This document shows, piece by piece, positions 2,926 to 44,763 of a stretch of DNA of 51,151 nt; the stretch's first letter is position 1, and each line of letters begins with the position of its first letter. Under the pieces are notes generated by a model, which had not been told where the DNA came from, did not search any database, and was given only the letters and a program-made list of their open reading frames with translations. Location of the stretch: NCBI GenBank assembly GCA_947426865.1, contig CANEFS010000005.1, forward strand, positions 1-51,151, in the 5' to 3' direction. This stretch comes from an uncultured Coriobacteriaceae bacterium. Lineage in GTDB: Bacteria; Actinomycetota; Coriobacteriia; Coriobacteriales; Atopobiaceae. The translations under genes were made by a program, and so were the position numbers.

Positions 2926-3270
2926 CTAGCGGGCAGCGATATTTTTAATGATGGCACCCGAGCCTTGAATGAGGTGCGTGTTGGGACTCCCGCACGCGGG
3001 ACACGTTTTACCAAACTTGGTGGGGCTGAAGGTTTCTTTGCAATCATCGCACTGATTGAGCGCGGGTTGGACTTCGGTAAAAAGCGTCGCTTCGTCCATG
3101 ATGGGTTCGCGCTTAATAGCCCAGTTCCAAGCGTCTTGGAGAAGGTCGGGAACTACGCCTGACACTTCTCCAAGCTCAACGGTAACTGCCTCTACGCGGG
3201 AGACGTTATTGTCTTGAGCAGCAGCTTTAACGCCGTCAATAATGTAGAAAACGATTCCAAGCTCGTGCAT
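2926..3270 (-). CDS. hypA: Hydrogenase/urease nickel incorporation protein HypA
   Basis: A 114-residue metallochaperone that, with HypB, delivers Ni(II) to the active site of [NiFe]-hydrogenase (or urease). The nickel-binding MHE N-terminus (His2) is intact, and the structural zinc site is two pairs, C74-x2-C77 and C90-x2-C93. Length is normal for the family. It starts 6 bp after the stop codon of the Fe-S/FAD oxidoreductase, so the two are surely co-transcribed. hypB lies upstream of that oxidoreductase. No hydrogenase subunit or hypCDEF gene is seen in the window, so the client enzyme must be encoded elsewhere. Confidence 0.95.
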   Translation of the reverse strand: MHELGIVFYIIDGVKAAAQDNNVSRVEAVTVELGEVSGVVPDLLQDAWNWAIKREPIMDEATLFTEVQPALNQCDDCKETFSPTKFGKTCPACGSPNTHLIQGSGAIIKNIAAR

Positions 3271-3276
3271 GGAACG

Positions 3277-6200
3277 CTACGCCTCTGTGTTTTCTGAGGC
3301 CGCGCTTGCTGTGGCTGCGCTTTTCTCGGCCGCACCTTCTGTGACAGTGCCCCCTTTAGAGGCAATTTTTGCCGCGCGCTTCTCGGCCTTTTTCTGAGCC
3401 TTCTTATTCTTGCGAATGCGAATGAGGCGCTTCAGGGCGTAGGGCGCGATGGCCTTTAACTTGTCCTCGCTCCTGTACATCGTGGAGTTTTCGGGGTGGT
3501 CGCGGTGCAGGTGAATCGCGTCGAACGCGCACTTCGTGGTGCAGAGACCGCAGCCGATGCACTTGTTGGGGTCAACGTAGGAAACGCCGCAGGACAGGCA
3601 GCGCGCCGTCTCGGCTTTGACTTGATCTTCCGTGAACGTCTCGACGTATTCGGCGAAGGGGTTGTTGGCCGCGGCCTTTGAAGTCGCAGGGACGTTGCGC
3701 TGGGCGGTGTCGTAGGAGTCAAGCTCGACGTTGTCCTTGTCGAACTCCTTGTAGTAGCGCTGGTTGCGCCCAATCGTAAGCGTCGAGCCAGGATGGACGA
3801 AACGGTGGATGGAGATGGACGCCTCGTGTCCTTGCGCAATCGCGTCGATGGCAAAGCGCGGTCCTGTTACGACGTCGCCGCCCGCAAAAATATCGTCTAC
3901 GCTCGTCTGATACGTTTGTTTGTCGATGACAGGGGCGCCGGTTTTCTCGAAGGCCATCTCTTCACCTTTGAGCAAATCGCCCCAAATCGTTTTTTGTCCG
4001 ACCGAGAAAACCACGGTGTTTGCAGGGACCTCCTCGGTGACTTTTCCGTCGTAGAGCGGGTTGAATTTGCCTTCCTTGTCGAAAACGGAGGTGCACTTTT
4101 TGAAGGTGACGCCCGTCACGCCGGCGTCGTCGCGAAGAACCTCTGCGGGCCCCCAACTGTTCACGATTTTGACGCCGTCCTCTGTAGCCTCTTCAACCTC
4201 GTCGGGAGAAGCTGGCATCTCATTGGCTTTCTCTAAGCAGCGCATCTCAACAGATTTCGCGCCCAAGCGAGCGGCTGTGCGCGCGACGTCAATCGCGACG
4301 TTTCCACCGCCGATAACCACGACGTTGCCCAAATCTTCTCCTTTGAGCTCGCCTTCTGCGGCGGCGTGGAGGAAGTCAACGGCGGTCCAGGAGCCTTCTG
4401 CCTCTTCGCCTTCGATGCCGGCTGAGCGCGAACCTTGGCAGCCAATAGCCACGTAAAAGGCGCGATAACCCTGCTTGCGAAGGTCGTCAAGGGTGATGTC
4501 TTTTCCGACTTCGGTGTTCAACTTGATATCAACACCCATCGATTTGATAAGGTCGACTTCGGCGTCGATGATGTCTTTCTCGAGCTTGTAGGAAGGAATG
4601 CCGTAGGTCAGCATGCCGCCTGCGCGCGAACTTTTCTCGAAAACGGTGGGACGGTAGCCTTTCTCGGCCAGATAGTAAGCGCACGAGAGACCCGCCGGAC
4701 CGGAGCCCACAATCGCGATTTTTTGGTCGAACTCGCCGCGGACAGAGGGGATGACTTTTTCGGGCGTCTTTCGCGTCTTGGGGTCGAGCTCAAGGGCGGC
4801 GACGAACTTCTTCACTTCGTCGATAGCAACCGCGCCGTCCAGCTTGCCGCGCGTACACTCGTCCTCGCAGCGGCGATTGCAGATGCGCCCGCAAATAGCA
4901 GGCAGCGGATTTTCTTTGCGAATGAGCTCGAGGGCTTCTTGGTACTTGCCTTGAGCAGCAAGCTTCAAATAACCCTGCACGGAAACGTGGGCCGGGCAGG
5001 CCGTTTTACAAGGCGCGGTTCCCGACTCTTGCGTCTCAATGCGGTTCACGTCGCGGTAGTTGGGCGTCCATTTTTCTGAACCCCAGTCAACGTCGTTGGG
5101 CAGTTCGTGCTTGGGATAGACGGGCGGCTCGTGGGTGTCTTTCGAGCAAAGCTTCTGTCCTAGCTTGATGGCGCCTGCCGGACAGACCTCGACGCAGCGC
5201 CCGCAAGCAACGCACTTGTCCGGCTCTATCTTTGCCGTGTAGGCCGAGCGGCTCATGTTGGGCGTGTTGTAGAGCTGGCTGGTACGCAGCGCATAGCAAA
5301 CGTTGACGTTGCAGTTACATATTGCAAAGATTTTATTCTCGCCATCGATGTTGGTAATTTGGTGGACGAAGCCGTTATCCTCAGCTTTTTTGAGGATTTC
5401 CATAACCTCGTCGTAGCTGAGGTAGCGGCCGCGATCCGTTTCAACAAGCCAGTCAGCCATGTCGCCAACGCCTATGCACCAATCCTCTGGATCATCTGCG
5501 CAACCCTCCCCTAGGCGCTCGCGAGACATGCGACAGGAGCACGGAGAGCCAGCATATTTGGGAGCATATTTTTTCAACCAGTGGCTGATGTGCTCGACGG
5601 TGGCTGTTTCGTTTTCCATCGTAATGGCGCGCTCAACCGGGATGACGTGCATACCGATGCCCGCACCTCCTGGAGGTACCATCGGCGTCACCTTATCCAG
5701 CGGCAGGCGCGTCATGCGCTCGAACATCTTCGCCGACTCAGGGTGGGACTGAAGGTCTACGCTGCGGGAGTTAAAGAACTCAGCAGAACCGGGAACGAAA
5801 GGCGGCAGGACGTATTGCTTTTCGCGCTGGGGATTTTCCCAGTTGTATTCGATTAAGCCAATGTAGGCCATCTCGTTTAAGAGTTTCTCGAGAGCTTCTA
5901 AGTCGTTGCGCTTTGTGACCTTAGCAATTTGCTTCAGCGTCTTGGGCTTTCTCACCTTCATCTTGAGGGCAACCTCTGCCATCTCGTCGGTGATGTTGGC
6001 GGCAAAGCCCCAGTATTCAGGGTCGTCGGCGGTCACCTTCACGCCGATGCGGTCTGTGACCATGTTCGCAAGATCGATGATGGGTTTGCGGGGATGGGCG
6101 CGCTCCTCCTCAGAGATTTCGGGGGTCCAATCAATCGTTTTGAAGTCGGTGAATTCTTGCGCCAAAACGATGCGGCCCTCGTCGTCGAAGACGGCAGGCT

Positions 6201-6363
6201 CAAAGCGGTCAGGGTGAGTGATGCCATGCTTTTTGGAGCCCTTAGCGTGAGGGTCAAGACCTGCCTCTTCAGCGGTTTCCGGCGCGATGTCACCCGGTAC
6301 GAGCTCGCCATAGCCCGTGTGCGTCATCTCTTCATCTATCATGTCTGTTTTGTTTTTGGCCAT
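3277..6363 (-). CDS. Large Fe-S/FAD pyridine-nucleotide oxidoreductase (GltD-like, with ferredoxin domains)
   Basis: A 1028-residue cytoplasmic electron-transfer flavoprotein (residue numbers here count from a GTG two codons upstream). Residues 140-195 resemble a small helical, winged-helix-like module. Residues 275-360 carry clustered cysteines (SPCSC, GEGC, ICNCNVNVC). A 4Fe-4S motif C386-x2-C-x2-C-x3-C396 follows, then a GltD-type N-terminal cluster (CKTACPAH to CEDEC, 454-505), an FAD Rossmann fold (GSGPAG, 555-560), an NAD(P) fold (GGGNVAID, 687-694) and a second ferredoxin motif C937-x2-C-x2-C-x3-C947. The tail after 985 is Lys/Ala/Glu-rich and low in complexity. The ATG at 6361-6363 is chosen over the upstream GTG because AAGG is correctly spaced. 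It probably moves electrons between NAD(P)H and ferredoxin or an enzyme partner. Flanking hypA and hypB suggest a hydrogenase link, which is inference. Confidence 0.85.
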   Translation of the reverse strand: MAKNKTDMIDEEMTHTGYGELVPGDIAPETAEEAGLDPHAKGSKKHGITHPDRFEPAVFDDEGRIVLAQEFTDFKTIDWTPEISEEERAHPRKPIIDLANMVTDRIGVKVTADDPEYWGFAANITDEMAEVALKMKVRKPKTLKQIAKVTKRNDLEALEKLLNEMAYIGLIEYNWENPQREKQYVLPPFVPGSAEFFNSRSVDLQSHPESAKMFERMTRLPLDKVTPMVPPGGAGIGMHVIPVERAITMENETATVEHISHWLKKYAPKYAGSPCSCRMSRERLGEGCADDPEDWCIGVGDMADWLVETDRGRYLSYDEVMEILKKAEDNGFVHQITNIDGENKIFAICNCNVNVCYALRTSQLYNTPNMSRSAYTAKIEPDKCVACGRCVEVCPAGAIKLGQKLCSKDTHEPPVYPKHELPNDVDWGSEKWTPNYRDVNRIETQESGTAPCKTACPAHVSVQGYLKLAAQGKYQEALELIRKENPLPAICGRICNRRCEDECTRGKLDGAVAIDEVKKFVAALELDPKTRKTPEKVIPSVRGEFDQKIAIVGSGPAGLSCAYYLAEKGYRPTVFEKSSRAGGMLTYGIPSYKLEKDIIDAEVDLIKSMGVDIKLNTEVGKDITLDDLRKQGYRAFYVAIGCQGSRSAGIEGEEAEGSWTAVDFLHAAAEGELKGEDLGNVVVIGGGNVAIDVARTAARLGAKSVEMRCLEKANEMPASPDEVEEATEDGVKIVNSWGPAEVLRDDAGVTGVTFKKCTSVFDKEGKFNPLYDGKVTEEVPANTVVFSVGQKTIWGDLLKGEEMAFEKTGAPVIDKQTYQTSVDDIFAGGDVVTGPRFAIDAIAQGHEASISIHRFVHPGSTLTIGRNQRYYKEFDKDNVELDSYDTAQRNVPATSKAAANNPFAEYVETFTEDQVKAETARCLSCGVSYVDPNKCIGCGLCTTKCAFDAIHLHRDHPENSTMYRSEDKLKAIAPYALKRLIRIRKNKKAQKKAEKRAAKIASKGGTVTEGAAEKSAATASAASENTEA

Positions 6364-6400
6364 GCCCACCCTTTCTTAAAAAAATGAAACTCTTGTCGCG

Positions 6401-6505
6401 CTTGGCGCGCTACGTTTAATGCTTGGCCCACTACGTTTAATGCGTTGCACGCTATGCTCTGCGCGTTGCGTGCTAGGCTTGATGCGTTGCGCGCTACGCT
6501 AAATC
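6401..6505. repeat. Five-copy degenerate 21-bp tandem array at the 3' end of hypB
   Basis: Five consecutive 21-base units fill the spacer between hypB and the oxidoreductase gene. On the minus strand units share the core ACGTAGCGCGC followed by AACG, and begin CATTAA or similar. The last unit (6485-6505) contains the final codons and the stop codon of hypB (6494-6496), so the array grows outward from the gene end. Units differ from one another at roughly 2 to 7 positions. Confidence 0.85.
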
Positions 6506-7201
6506 ATATACCGAAATCTGGTCTTTTATCCAGCTGGCAAACGCGTCAATCCCCTCTCCCGTTTTTGCGCTCAGATAGATGATGGTCGCCTCGGGATTGC
6601 GCAGGTAGACGCCGTCCTCAAAATATTTCTTGTCGAAATCGAAGTGCTCCATGACGTCAATTTTGTTCACGAGAACCACGTCGGTCGTCTCGAACATGAG
6701 CGGATACTTGTAGGGTTTGTCGTCGCCTTCAGGAACCGAGAGAATCTCGACGTTAGCGTTTGCGCCGGTGTCAAACTCTGCCGGGCACACCAAGTTTCCG
6801 ACGTTTTCGAGAATAGCCAAGTCGACCGGAGCACCCGTTTCCTCCTGAGCATAGGCTTGCAGTTCGTTGACGCCCGTCTCGGTCATGCCGGCATCCAAGT
6901 GGCACATCCCTCCGGTGTGGATTTGGATGGAGGGGATTCCTGCGTCTAACATGTCGCGCGCATCGACATCCGAGTCGATATCTGCTTCCATGACGCCTAC
7001 CGAAATATCACCTTTGAGCTCAGCGATTGTTTTCAAGAGCGTGCTCGTTTTGCCGGCTCCGGGAGAGCCCATGACGTTCATGAGGAAGGTGCCCTCTTCT
7101 TTAAGGCGCGAGCGCAGTTTGTCCGCCGCCTCATCGTTTGCCGCAAAAACGGACTCTTTTACCTCAATAATGCGAACTTTTTTCTCATCTGCTTCAGTCA
7201 T
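6494..7201 (-). CDS. hypB: Hydrogenase nickel incorporation GTPase HypB
   Basis: A 235-residue SIMIBI-class GTPase that drives nickel transfer from HypA to a hydrogenase precursor. The Walker A is GSPGAGKTS (45-53); the interface metal site is C100-H101 in GGMCHLDA; ENVGNLVCP (132-140) and NKID (179-182) are diagnostic for HypB. The N-terminal CxxC nickel motif and any His-rich stretch are absent, so it is the minimal form without nickel storage. The ATG at 7199-7201 has AAAGG about 8 bases upstream and gives the usual family N-terminus. An in-frame TTG at 7252 would add 17 residues but has poor ribosome-binding context. It is followed by a tandem array and then the oxidoreductase and hypA. 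Confidence 0.94.
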   Translation of the reverse strand: MTEADEKKVRIIEVKESVFAANDEAADKLRSRLKEEGTFLMNVMGSPGAGKTSTLLKTIAELKGDISVGVMEADIDSDVDARDMLDAGIPSIQIHTGGMCHLDAGMTETGVNELQAYAQEETGAPVDLAILENVGNLVCPAEFDTGANANVEILSVPEGDDKPYKYPLMFETTDVVLVNKIDVMEHFDFDKKYFEDGVYLRNPEATIIYLSAKTGEGIDAFASWIKDQISVYDLA

Positions 7202-7281
7202 TTTCCAACCTTTTCGTTCCAACTCTCTTTCGAGCTCTTCATAGTTCTTCAAAGCTCTTCAGAATAAAATCCTTTAAGATT

Positions 7282-42669: not shown

Positions 42670-44763
42670 TTAAAAGCGAGCGTGAAACGGCAGCATAAGG
42701 CGCATACCGTTCAAAACGACGATGAGGGTCACGCCCGTGTCGGCAAAAATGGCCCAACCCATTCCCACCATACCAAGCATCGCAAGCACAAGGATGGAAA
42801 TCTTGATGATAAGAGCAAAGGCGATGTTTTCTTTGACGACCGCCATCGTTTGTTTTGCCAGGCGGAAGAAGGGCGGGAGCTGCTCTAAGTCGCCTCCCAG
42901 AAGCGCAACCGTAGCAACCTCGAGGGCTGAGTCGGAAGCGGCGGCCCCCATCGTTATACCGAGGTTGGCTGTGGCCAGAGCTGGCGCATCATTGATGCCG
43001 TCTCCCACAAAGGCAACCGTCCCCTCCTTTTTCAGCTTTTCGATGTAGGCAACTTTGTCTTGGGGCAAAAGCTCGGCTTTTTCTTCAGTGACGCCAATCG
43101 TTTTTGCAACGGCACTTGCGGCTTGCTTGTTGTCGCCGGTAAGCATGACCGTCTTCATGTGGAGCTTGTTTTTTAACTGGGCAAGCGCCTCTTTTGTTGT
43201 CTCTCGTATGATGTCAGAAATTCCAAGCGCACCCACAATGACCGCTCCTTGGCTGAGCAGAAGGCAAGTTGCACCCTTTTGCGTAATGGCAACAATCTCT
43301 TCTTGCACTACATCGGGGAGCGCGGCGAGGCCCAGCTGCTCGCGGATAAAGTCAGGCTTGCCAATGGCGACCGGCTCTCCTGACAAGTTTGCCGTCACGC
43401 CGTTTCCGGGCTTCTCGGCAAAGTCGGTGAGGGCGAAGGTAAGGTCGATCGTCTTGGAAAAAACAACAACGGCTTTGGCTAAGGGGTGCGTAGAGTTCTT
43501 CTCGAGAGCGGCAGCAAGGGCTGCTACCTGGTCTTTCGAAAGATCTGCCTTGGGATAGCGCGGGGGCTCGTGCGGGGTCACGGAGCGCGCGAAAGGATGG
43601 ACGGCGACCACCTGGGGCTCGCCTTTCGTGAGCGTTCCAGTCTTGTCGAAGGCGACGATGCTGACGTGGCGGGCGGTGTCGAAAGCCGCTCCCCCTTTGA
43701 CGAGGACCCCTAGGCGCGCGGCTCGGGTGATGGCCGAGACAAACGAAACGGGCGTCGAGATAACAAGGGCACAGGGACAAGAAATAACCAGGAGCGTGAG
43801 GGCTCGGGCAATCCAGACGAACCAGATGTTAGAGATGGGAGAGGCTGCGATGCCTGCTGTGGGACCGACAAAGTTGGCAAGGTTTTCTGCGACTTCAGGA
43901 CCGCCAAAGGTGCCGATTAAAGAGAGGCCGGCCGGAATTCCGAAGCCCACGACAAGAGCGACAATCACGATAATGGGGGTGTAGACCGCGGCAAAGCGAT
44001 TGATGAACGACTCATAAGGCGCTTTCTGCTTCTGCGCGCCTTGAACCATCTCGATGATGCGCGAGAGCATGCCTCCGTCATAAGCCGCGTCAACACGCAC
44101 GAAAACAGGTGCGATGGTGTTCAGGGTTCCGCCGTAGACGAACTGGCCTGCCCCTCGGTCTTGCGGAATCGACTCGCCGGTAACAGGGGCCTCGTTGAAG
44201 GCCGACTCCCCTTCCACGATGACGCCGTCGAGAGGAACGCGCTCGCCCGGCAAAATTTTAACGACCGAGCCCACGGCCACTTCTATCAGATCTTCCTCTG
44301 CCAAAGGCAGCGCATCGTAGTTTGCAGCAGAGGTTGCCACGACACTGCCTTTTACCACGTGGGCGCGCTCTGGCGCGAGCTTCATGAGGCTTTTTATCGA
44401 ACCTTGGGTTTTCTCGAGAGACCAATCTTCAAGACGCTCGCCAATCTGGTAAAGGAAGATGACGATGGCCGCGTCTCTGAAAAGCTCCACGTCAAGCTCG
44501 CCGACGGCAATCTTGTAAAAGCCCATGATAAAGGCGCCAAAAACAGCGATTCCCATGAGGGTGTTCATATCGGCTGTGAGCTTTTTTGCCGATTTGACGA
44601 CAGCCGGCGAAACGTAGAGAAGGCCGGTGGAGGCGGCTGCTAGATAAAAAACGAAGGCTAGCCACTCAACGGGCGCAAAAATCTCCAAGACAACCCCTAC
44701 CACAAAGACGATTCCTGAGACGGCAAGTAGATACTTCTCCGTTTTTTCTGACCATTCCTTCAT
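42670..44763 (-). CDS. P1B-type heavy-metal-exporting ATPase (Zn/Cd/Pb type)
   Basis: A 697-residue inner-membrane pump. The metal-binding membrane motif is SCPCAL (CPC at 329-331), the phosphorylated Asp is in DKTGTLTKG (373-377), the actuator motif is PVTGES (193-198), and the nucleotide site has THPLAKA, MLTGDN and VGDGINDAPALA. The last helix ends GVTLIVVLNGMRL, typical of the Zn/Cd group rather than the Cu group. No N-terminal metal-binding domain is present; the chain begins directly at the membrane region. A longer than usual outward loop lies at about 280-313. AAAGGA precedes the ATG by about 10 bases. A 19-bp tandem array lies upstream. No metal-responsive regulator is adjacent. Confidence 0.93.
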   Translation of the reverse strand: MKEWSEKTEKYLLAVSGIVFVVGVVLEIFAPVEWLAFVFYLAAASTGLLYVSPAVVKSAKKLTADMNTLMGIAVFGAFIMGFYKIAVGELDVELFRDAAIVIFLYQIGERLEDWSLEKTQGSIKSLMKLAPERAHVVKGSVVATSAANYDALPLAEEDLIEVAVGSVVKILPGERVPLDGVIVEGESAFNEAPVTGESIPQDRGAGQFVYGGTLNTIAPVFVRVDAAYDGGMLSRIIEMVQGAQKQKAPYESFINRFAAVYTPIIVIVALVVGFGIPAGLSLIGTFGGPEVAENLANFVGPTAGIAASPISNIWFVWIARALTLLVISCPCALVISTPVSFVSAITRAARLGVLVKGGAAFDTARHVSIVAFDKTGTLTKGEPQVVAVHPFARSVTPHEPPRYPKADLSKDQVAALAAALEKNSTHPLAKAVVVFSKTIDLTFALTDFAEKPGNGVTANLSGEPVAIGKPDFIREQLGLAALPDVVQEEIVAITQKGATCLLLSQGAVIVGALGISDIIRETTKEALAQLKNKLHMKTVMLTGDNKQAASAVAKTIGVTEEKAELLPQDKVAYIEKLKKEGTVAFVGDGINDAPALATANLGITMGAAASDSALEVATVALLGGDLEQLPPFFRLAKQTMAVVKENIAFALIIKISILVLAMLGMVGMGWAIFADTGVTLIVVLNGMRLMLPFHARF

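Follow-up and report, generated by a model that had tools for sequence, protein, structure and literature searches.

Gene order and proteins of the locus

The window analyzed here comprises 51,151 nucleotides (GenBank assembly GCA_947426865.1, contig CANEFS010000005.1, positions 1 to 51,151) from an uncultured Coriobacteriaceae bacterium, assigned to the Atopobiaceae in the GTDB lineage. Its minus strand encodes, in this order, the nickel-delivery GTPase HypB (7252-6494), a large iron-sulfur (Fe-S)/flavin adenine dinucleotide (FAD) oxidoreductase (6369-3277), and the nickel metallochaperone HypA (3270-2926). The spacing is 124 nt between hypB and the oxidoreductase gene and 6 nt between the latter and hypA. 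A preliminary description of this DNA had reported that hypA and hypB enclose an oxidoreductase of about 1030 residues, and the present analysis agrees: each of the three genes is on the minus strand at the position given, and the flavoprotein has a GltD/Nfn core (Pyr_redox_2, Fer4_20), seven N-terminal cysteines within residues 277-358, and two CxxCxxCxxxC motifs. The boundary of hypB needs adjustment, as position 7201 is an internal ATG, itself a possible start, whereas the longest open reading frame begins at the TTG at 7252. The features of the locus are:

6494..7252, minus strand: hypB, nickel-delivery GTPase, 252 amino acids (TIGR00073, PF02492; ligands Cys117-His118 and Cys156)
3277..6369, minus strand: Fe-S/FAD oxidoreductase, 1030 amino acids, GTG start, assigned to the IsrA family (clade 9) from its domains, its AlphaFold2 model, and the family as described in PMC10134865
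5296..5541, minus strand: six-cysteine "cluster V" site (Cys277, 279, 298, 351, 353, 358), candidate nickel site (invariance, IsrA spacing)
5179..5214, minus strand: first ferredoxin motif CxxCxxCxxxCP, residues 386-397 (Fer4 match, invariant, offset of +97 to IsrA 289-300)
3520..5031, minus strand: GltD/Nfn-like module, residues 447-950, with Fer4_20 (two 4Fe-4S clusters) and FAD and NAD(P) sites (PF14691, PF07992, match to 9bov_A)
3529..3561, minus strand: C-terminal ferredoxin motif CxxCxxCxxxC, residues 937-947, with Cys924 and Cys927 upstream (invariant in 112/112)
2926..3270, minus strand: hypA, nickel metallochaperone, 114 amino acids (PF01155; MHE nickel motif, two CxxC zinc motifs)

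HypB matches the NCBIfam model TIGR00073 with 223 bits (cut-off 121) as well as PF02492. The metal site of its G-domain (C117, H118, C156) is invariant in the 71 aligned HypB sequences that cover these positions, and the protein has neither a His-rich nor a CxxCGC region at its N-terminus. HypA scores above the Pfam cut-off for PF01155 (99 bits) and below that of the NCBIfam model TIGR00100 (71 against 88); His2 and Glu3 of the MHE motif and the four zinc cysteines are conserved in all 89 aligned sequences. Because the metal ligands are invariant in the alignments, the proteins of the locus look functional and nickel-competent.

The oxidoreductase contains the Pfam domains Fer4, Fer4_20 (PF14691), and Pyr_redox_2 (PF07992), and all four canonical 4Fe-4S motifs as well as the FAD and NAD(P) sites are present. 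No Pfam family above cut-off was found in the 350-residue N-terminal part that carries the six-cysteine (Cys6) site. Six of the seven N-terminal cysteines (Cys277, 279, 298, 351, 353, and 358) and His336 are invariant in all 112 aligned oxidoreductases, as are the canonical cluster cysteines, including those of both ferredoxin motifs (386-396 and 937-947). Identities to members of the protein family from Lachnospiraceae and other groups range from 47 to 68% over approximately 900 residues, in a comparison made among homologs other than IsrA itself. The glutamate Glu713 is shared by 93 of the 112 sequences; the remaining 19 carry at this position the arginine typical of NADPH binding, as part of an NADPH-type arginine pair that replaces Leu-Glu. 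As Glu713 sits where NADPH-dependent enzymes have an arginine, the sequence suggests that the enzyme uses NADH.

In the AlphaFold2 model (mean predicted local distance difference test score, pLDDT, 81; predicted template modeling score, pTM, 0.83), the GltD-like half aligns with chain 9bov_A of NfnABC (VIA-align Z 38.3, 472 residues, root-mean-square deviation 2.3 Å) and with 8oh5_C (Z 37.4), so that, among solved structures, the oxidoreductase most closely resembles the GltD-like chains of NfnABC and StnABC, two bifurcating transhydrogenases. The N-terminal part, folded separately, also reached a pLDDT of 81. Residues ~84-225 are weakly winged-helix-like, with a best Z of 7.4 that lies within background and Foldseek E-values above 0.03. 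For the Cys6 half of this part no clear structural match was obtained, a failure that is no proof of a new fold.

Co-occurrence with HypB and the search for nickel enzymes in the host

The order hypB-oxidoreductase-hypA recurs in most loci of the same bacterial family and in Lachnospiraceae, other Bacillota, Spirochaetota, and further groups; in a Treponema locus, hypB comes after hypA and on the opposite strand. A chance neighborhood of the three genes was rejected, since their order recurs and they co-occur across genomes. Among 121 genomes of the family, 71 encode the oxidoreductase, and HypB was detected above cut-off in 67, all of them within these 71 (67/71 versus 0/50; Fisher p = 1e-29, a figure that is not corrected for kinship and overstates independence). 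The four oxidoreductase genomes lacking HypB comprise G097, with a fragment of HypB at the edge of a contig, the incomplete G076 and G103, and G047. Full-length HypA parallels this pattern and occurs without the oxidoreductase only in G100 and G118, both drafts of about 87% completeness. In seven genomes from several genera (G005, G030, G051, G061, G063, G065, and G074), hypA and hypB adjoin each other but are unlinked from the oxidoreductase gene, and all three genes are retained; in G051, about 0.8 Mb separate hypB-hypA from the oxidoreductase gene on the same contig.

Other markers of nickel use behave differently. HypD (p = 0.42), LarA (p = 0.84), and UreG-like matches (p = 0.52) do not track the oxidoreductase in the 121 genomes, and the [NiFe]-hydrogenase large subunit (PF00374) was found in none of them; outside the family, it was not found in 35 of 40 oxidoreductase-bearing genomes. 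Ten oxidoreductase genomes, including that of the window's host (G000), yielded no match to HypD, LarC, LarA, UreG-like proteins, or carbon monoxide dehydrogenase (CODH), and all ten encode HypB.

G000 is a 1.04-Mb draft of 94% completeness. That no hydrogenase genes accompany hypA and hypB had been noted for the window, and it holds genome-wide: family searches detected no [NiFe]-hydrogenase large subunit, with a PF00374 search that was positive in E. coli and other controls, and no HypD (PF01924), while HypC, HypE, and HypF were not searched singly. LarC, LarA, CODH, and urease were likewise not found, in searches that did not take in Ni-superoxide dismutase or glyoxalase I. Hydrogenase, CODH, urease, and lactate racemase were consequently rejected as nickel users of this genome. 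The near-exclusive pairing of HypB with the oxidoreductase in one bacterial family and a reduced genome in which no other nickel marker was found are the new observations of this analysis.

The candidate client of HypA and HypB

By its sequence, the oxidoreductase is a member of clade 9, as it matches the anatomy of IsrA, the putative isoprene reductase encoded by the isr operon of Acetobacterium wieringae ISORED-2 (Kronen et al., 2023, mSystems, PMC10134865). IsrA was induced by isoprene together with its HypA and HypB, and the ISORED-2 genome encodes neither a [NiFe]-hydrogenase nor hypCDEF (PMC10134865). Clade 9 comprises 988 IsrA homologs, with hypA nearby in 73%, hypB in 56%, and DUF5692 at 0.4, and Actinobacteria are already among its hosts (PMC10134865). 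IsrA has been proposed as a nickel client with the Cys6 "cluster V" as possible site (PMC10134865). The client idea for this family is thus already published, and that work largely explains what seemed surprising about the locus; a literature search found no paper on the IsrA family after 2023.

We consider it fairly probable that HypA and HypB load nickel into the Cys6 site of the oxidoreductase, and that the enzyme performs the NADH-driven reduction of a substrate with, probably, a C=C bond. HypB would bind nickel and GTP and hand the metal to HypA, which would insert it into the N-terminal site to form a nickel-iron-sulfur or similar center. FAD in the GltD-like half would accept a hydride from NAD(P)H, with NADH as the probable donor, and the four 4Fe-4S clusters might relay the electrons to the six-cysteine center, where the unsaturated substrate would be reduced; the spatial placement of cysteines and clusters is taken from PMC10134865. 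Nickel in the Cys6 site, the direction of electron flow, and the substrate are the parts that we infer, beside the observed gene order, domains, invariant ligands of the three proteins, co-occurrence, and hydrogenase absence. Whether the oxidoreductase constitutes a biochemically new class of NADH-driven nickel enzyme, widespread in gut anaerobes and possibly the sole client of HypA and HypB in G000, appears to us evenly balanced.

Several points weigh against nickel loading of the oxidoreductase. The Cys6 site might bind an ordinary Fe-S cluster instead, and the metal content and activity of clade 9 proteins are predictions. No CbiM-type nickel uptake gene was found in G000, in a search that did not take in other nickel transporters. 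G047, which is 98% complete in two contigs, keeps the oxidoreductase without HypA or HypB above cut-off and, as far as can be told, is a true exception to the HypB pairing. LarC is also associated with the oxidoreductase (58/71 versus 17/50, p = 1e-7), and in about five Lachnospiraceae loci larB-, larC-, and larE-like genes lie directly upstream of hypB, although neither LarA nor LarC was found in G000. The near-complete G047 (G047:C1; loci L021 and L145) could show, as a natural experiment, whether the oxidoreductase can do without the chaperones.

The preliminary description had offered two explanations, an electron-transfer module tied to a nickel enzyme whose gene lies at another locus and the service of HypA and HypB to a different nickel enzyme. 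The latter is supported, and the former is weakened, with no such enzyme found in G000 and with HypB tracking the oxidoreductase across the family and not hydrogenase, HypD, LarA, or UreG. Because HypB pairs near-exclusively with the oxidoreductase and no other nickel marker was found in G000, the flavoprotein itself is the more likely client than an enzyme from another locus. It is nevertheless conceivable, if rather unlikely, that the oxidoreductase donates electrons to, or accepts them from, a separate and unrecognized nickel enzyme loaded by HypA and HypB, which classically serve separate client proteins; the absence of such enzymes was tested for known families in a draft of 94% completeness. 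Yet the known nickel families tested are absent from G000, the genomes with unlinked genes keep just these three, and no second gene is consistently linked to the trio. The next commonest neighbor is a gene for the membrane protein DUF5692 (PF18948), located behind hypA in 25 of the 79 loci that come from outside the family (e.g., L057:13270-14310); no such gene adjoins the operon in the window.

The model published for IsrA places the Cys6 site at the end of a series of Fe-S clusters (PMC10134865), which together with the chaperone-free oxidoreductase of G047 would agree with a co-option of HypA and HypB for another metal or for Fe-S repair of the oxidoreductase, the site then holding an Fe-S cluster, ordinary or unusual, without nickel. 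Against this, the HypA MHE motif and the CH...C site of HypB, both known nickel ligands, are invariant, and we regard such a co-option as improbable. Least credible, and in our view very improbable, is that the client of HypA and HypB is a nickel enzyme of an already known type in the host, be it of the lactate racemase family, urease, or CODH, with the oxidoreductase beside them for historical reasons. The LarC correlation and the lar genes upstream of hypB in five Lachnospiraceae loci speak for this, but LarA does not track the oxidoreductase, and those systems have dedicated maturation factors of their own in LarC, AcsF, and UreG. The ten HypB-positive genomes without LarC, LarA, UreG, HypD, or CODH also argue against it, and for G000 it is contradicted unless the missing 6% encodes such an enzyme.

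If HypA and HypB do load the flavoprotein, nickel would be used by a further enzyme class across gut anaerobes, one for which the hydrogenation of unactivated double bonds has been proposed. Its near-exclusive pairing with HypB in a whole bacterial family makes the question of the nickel client directly testable, and a small genome without another marker of nickel use provides a clean case. In metagenome annotation, HypA and HypB, although hydrogenases are their usual recipients of nickel, should not be taken as a sign of hydrogenase.

Genomic neighborhood and comparison with known systems

Upstream of hypB lies an amino-acid permease gene, whose end is 29 nt away, and a class II (fructose-bisphosphate) aldolase gene follows hypA on the other side of the operon. 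The permease was not seen beside the operon in relatives, whose flanks are often short, and promoter- and terminator-like matches between the genes are about as frequent as expected from shuffled sequence. The G+C content of the window is 52%, that of same-family loci 56-71%; in the tree, the window oxidoreductase falls into one group with proteins of its own family (support 93), so that a recent transfer need not be assumed. The same contig encodes a heavy-metal P1B-type ATPase of the Zn/Cd class (42670-44763; TIGR01525, TIGR01512), whose metal is not predicted. Oscillospiraceae-type loci carry the oxidoreductase in tandem copies (L082:7146-12751, L100:5800-11419), and in L075 and L106 a second copy of about 46% identity lies on the opposite strand. 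Examples of loci with the lar-like genes, which belong to nickel-pincer cofactor synthesis, are L103:7006-9120 and L043:6151-6912. One Lachnospiraceae locus (L061:6593-8044) encodes, about 1 kb upstream of hypB, a protein that contains an iron-only hydrogenase large-subunit C-terminal domain and whose cluster has members in four loci.

Several genomes of the family contain hypF, hypC, hypD, and hypE in a conserved run with nitrogenase-like genes (e.g., L159:2622-17191 in G078; also L156, L157, L158, L160, L161, and L128-L131). These runs encode a NifH-like protein, a fused or split NifD/K-like protein, and two further NifD/K-like proteins; a second NifH is frequent, and most of the runs also encode a HydE-like radical S-adenosylmethionine protein. 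HypD occurs in 35 of the 121 family genomes, 14 of which lack HypB above cut-off, and in none of the 121 does it meet a [NiFe]-hydrogenase. In those relatives, the machinery that makes Fe(CN)2CO may supply a scaffold of the nitrogenase type or some unknown cofactor. This run, on which no paper was found in a literature search, is possibly more surprising than the nickel-chaperone operon itself; it is absent from G000, where HypD was not found.

Among known systems, the isr operon is the closest. The window protein shares with IsrA the domain order over its full length, the adjacent hypA and hypB, a strictly anaerobic host, and a genome without [NiFe]-hydrogenase. The CxC pairs of the Cys6 site are spaced by 74 residues in both proteins (Cys277/279 to Cys351/353 in the window, Cys180/182 to Cys254/256 in IsrA), and a constant offset of +97 extends from this site through the first ferredoxin motif. 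The window operon differs by lacking the isr 4Fe-4S ferredoxin and by having one hypA only, where isr has a second, and its oxidoreductase has about 97 extra N-terminal residues that are mostly unordered in the model. Judged from published coordinates only and not from an alignment with the IsrA sequence, the two ferredoxin motifs appear to be closer to each other than in IsrA, as would be expected if the isoprene-type 26-residue insert (IsrA 756-782) were absent. The native substrate is probably not isoprene.

With the HypABCDEF maturation system, the locus shares HypA and HypB with intact nickel ligands, but G000 has no HypD and no hydrogenase large subunit. The NAD(P)H:ferredoxin transhydrogenase proteins NfnA/NfnB and StnC and the glutamate synthase small subunit GltD have the same fold and cofactor sites as residues 447-950 of the oxidoreductase. 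In contrast to Nfn and Stn, no partner subunit is encoded among the neighboring genes in the window, to which this search was confined, and the window protein differs from Nfn, Stn, and GltD by adding the 350-residue N-terminal part that bears the Cys6 site.

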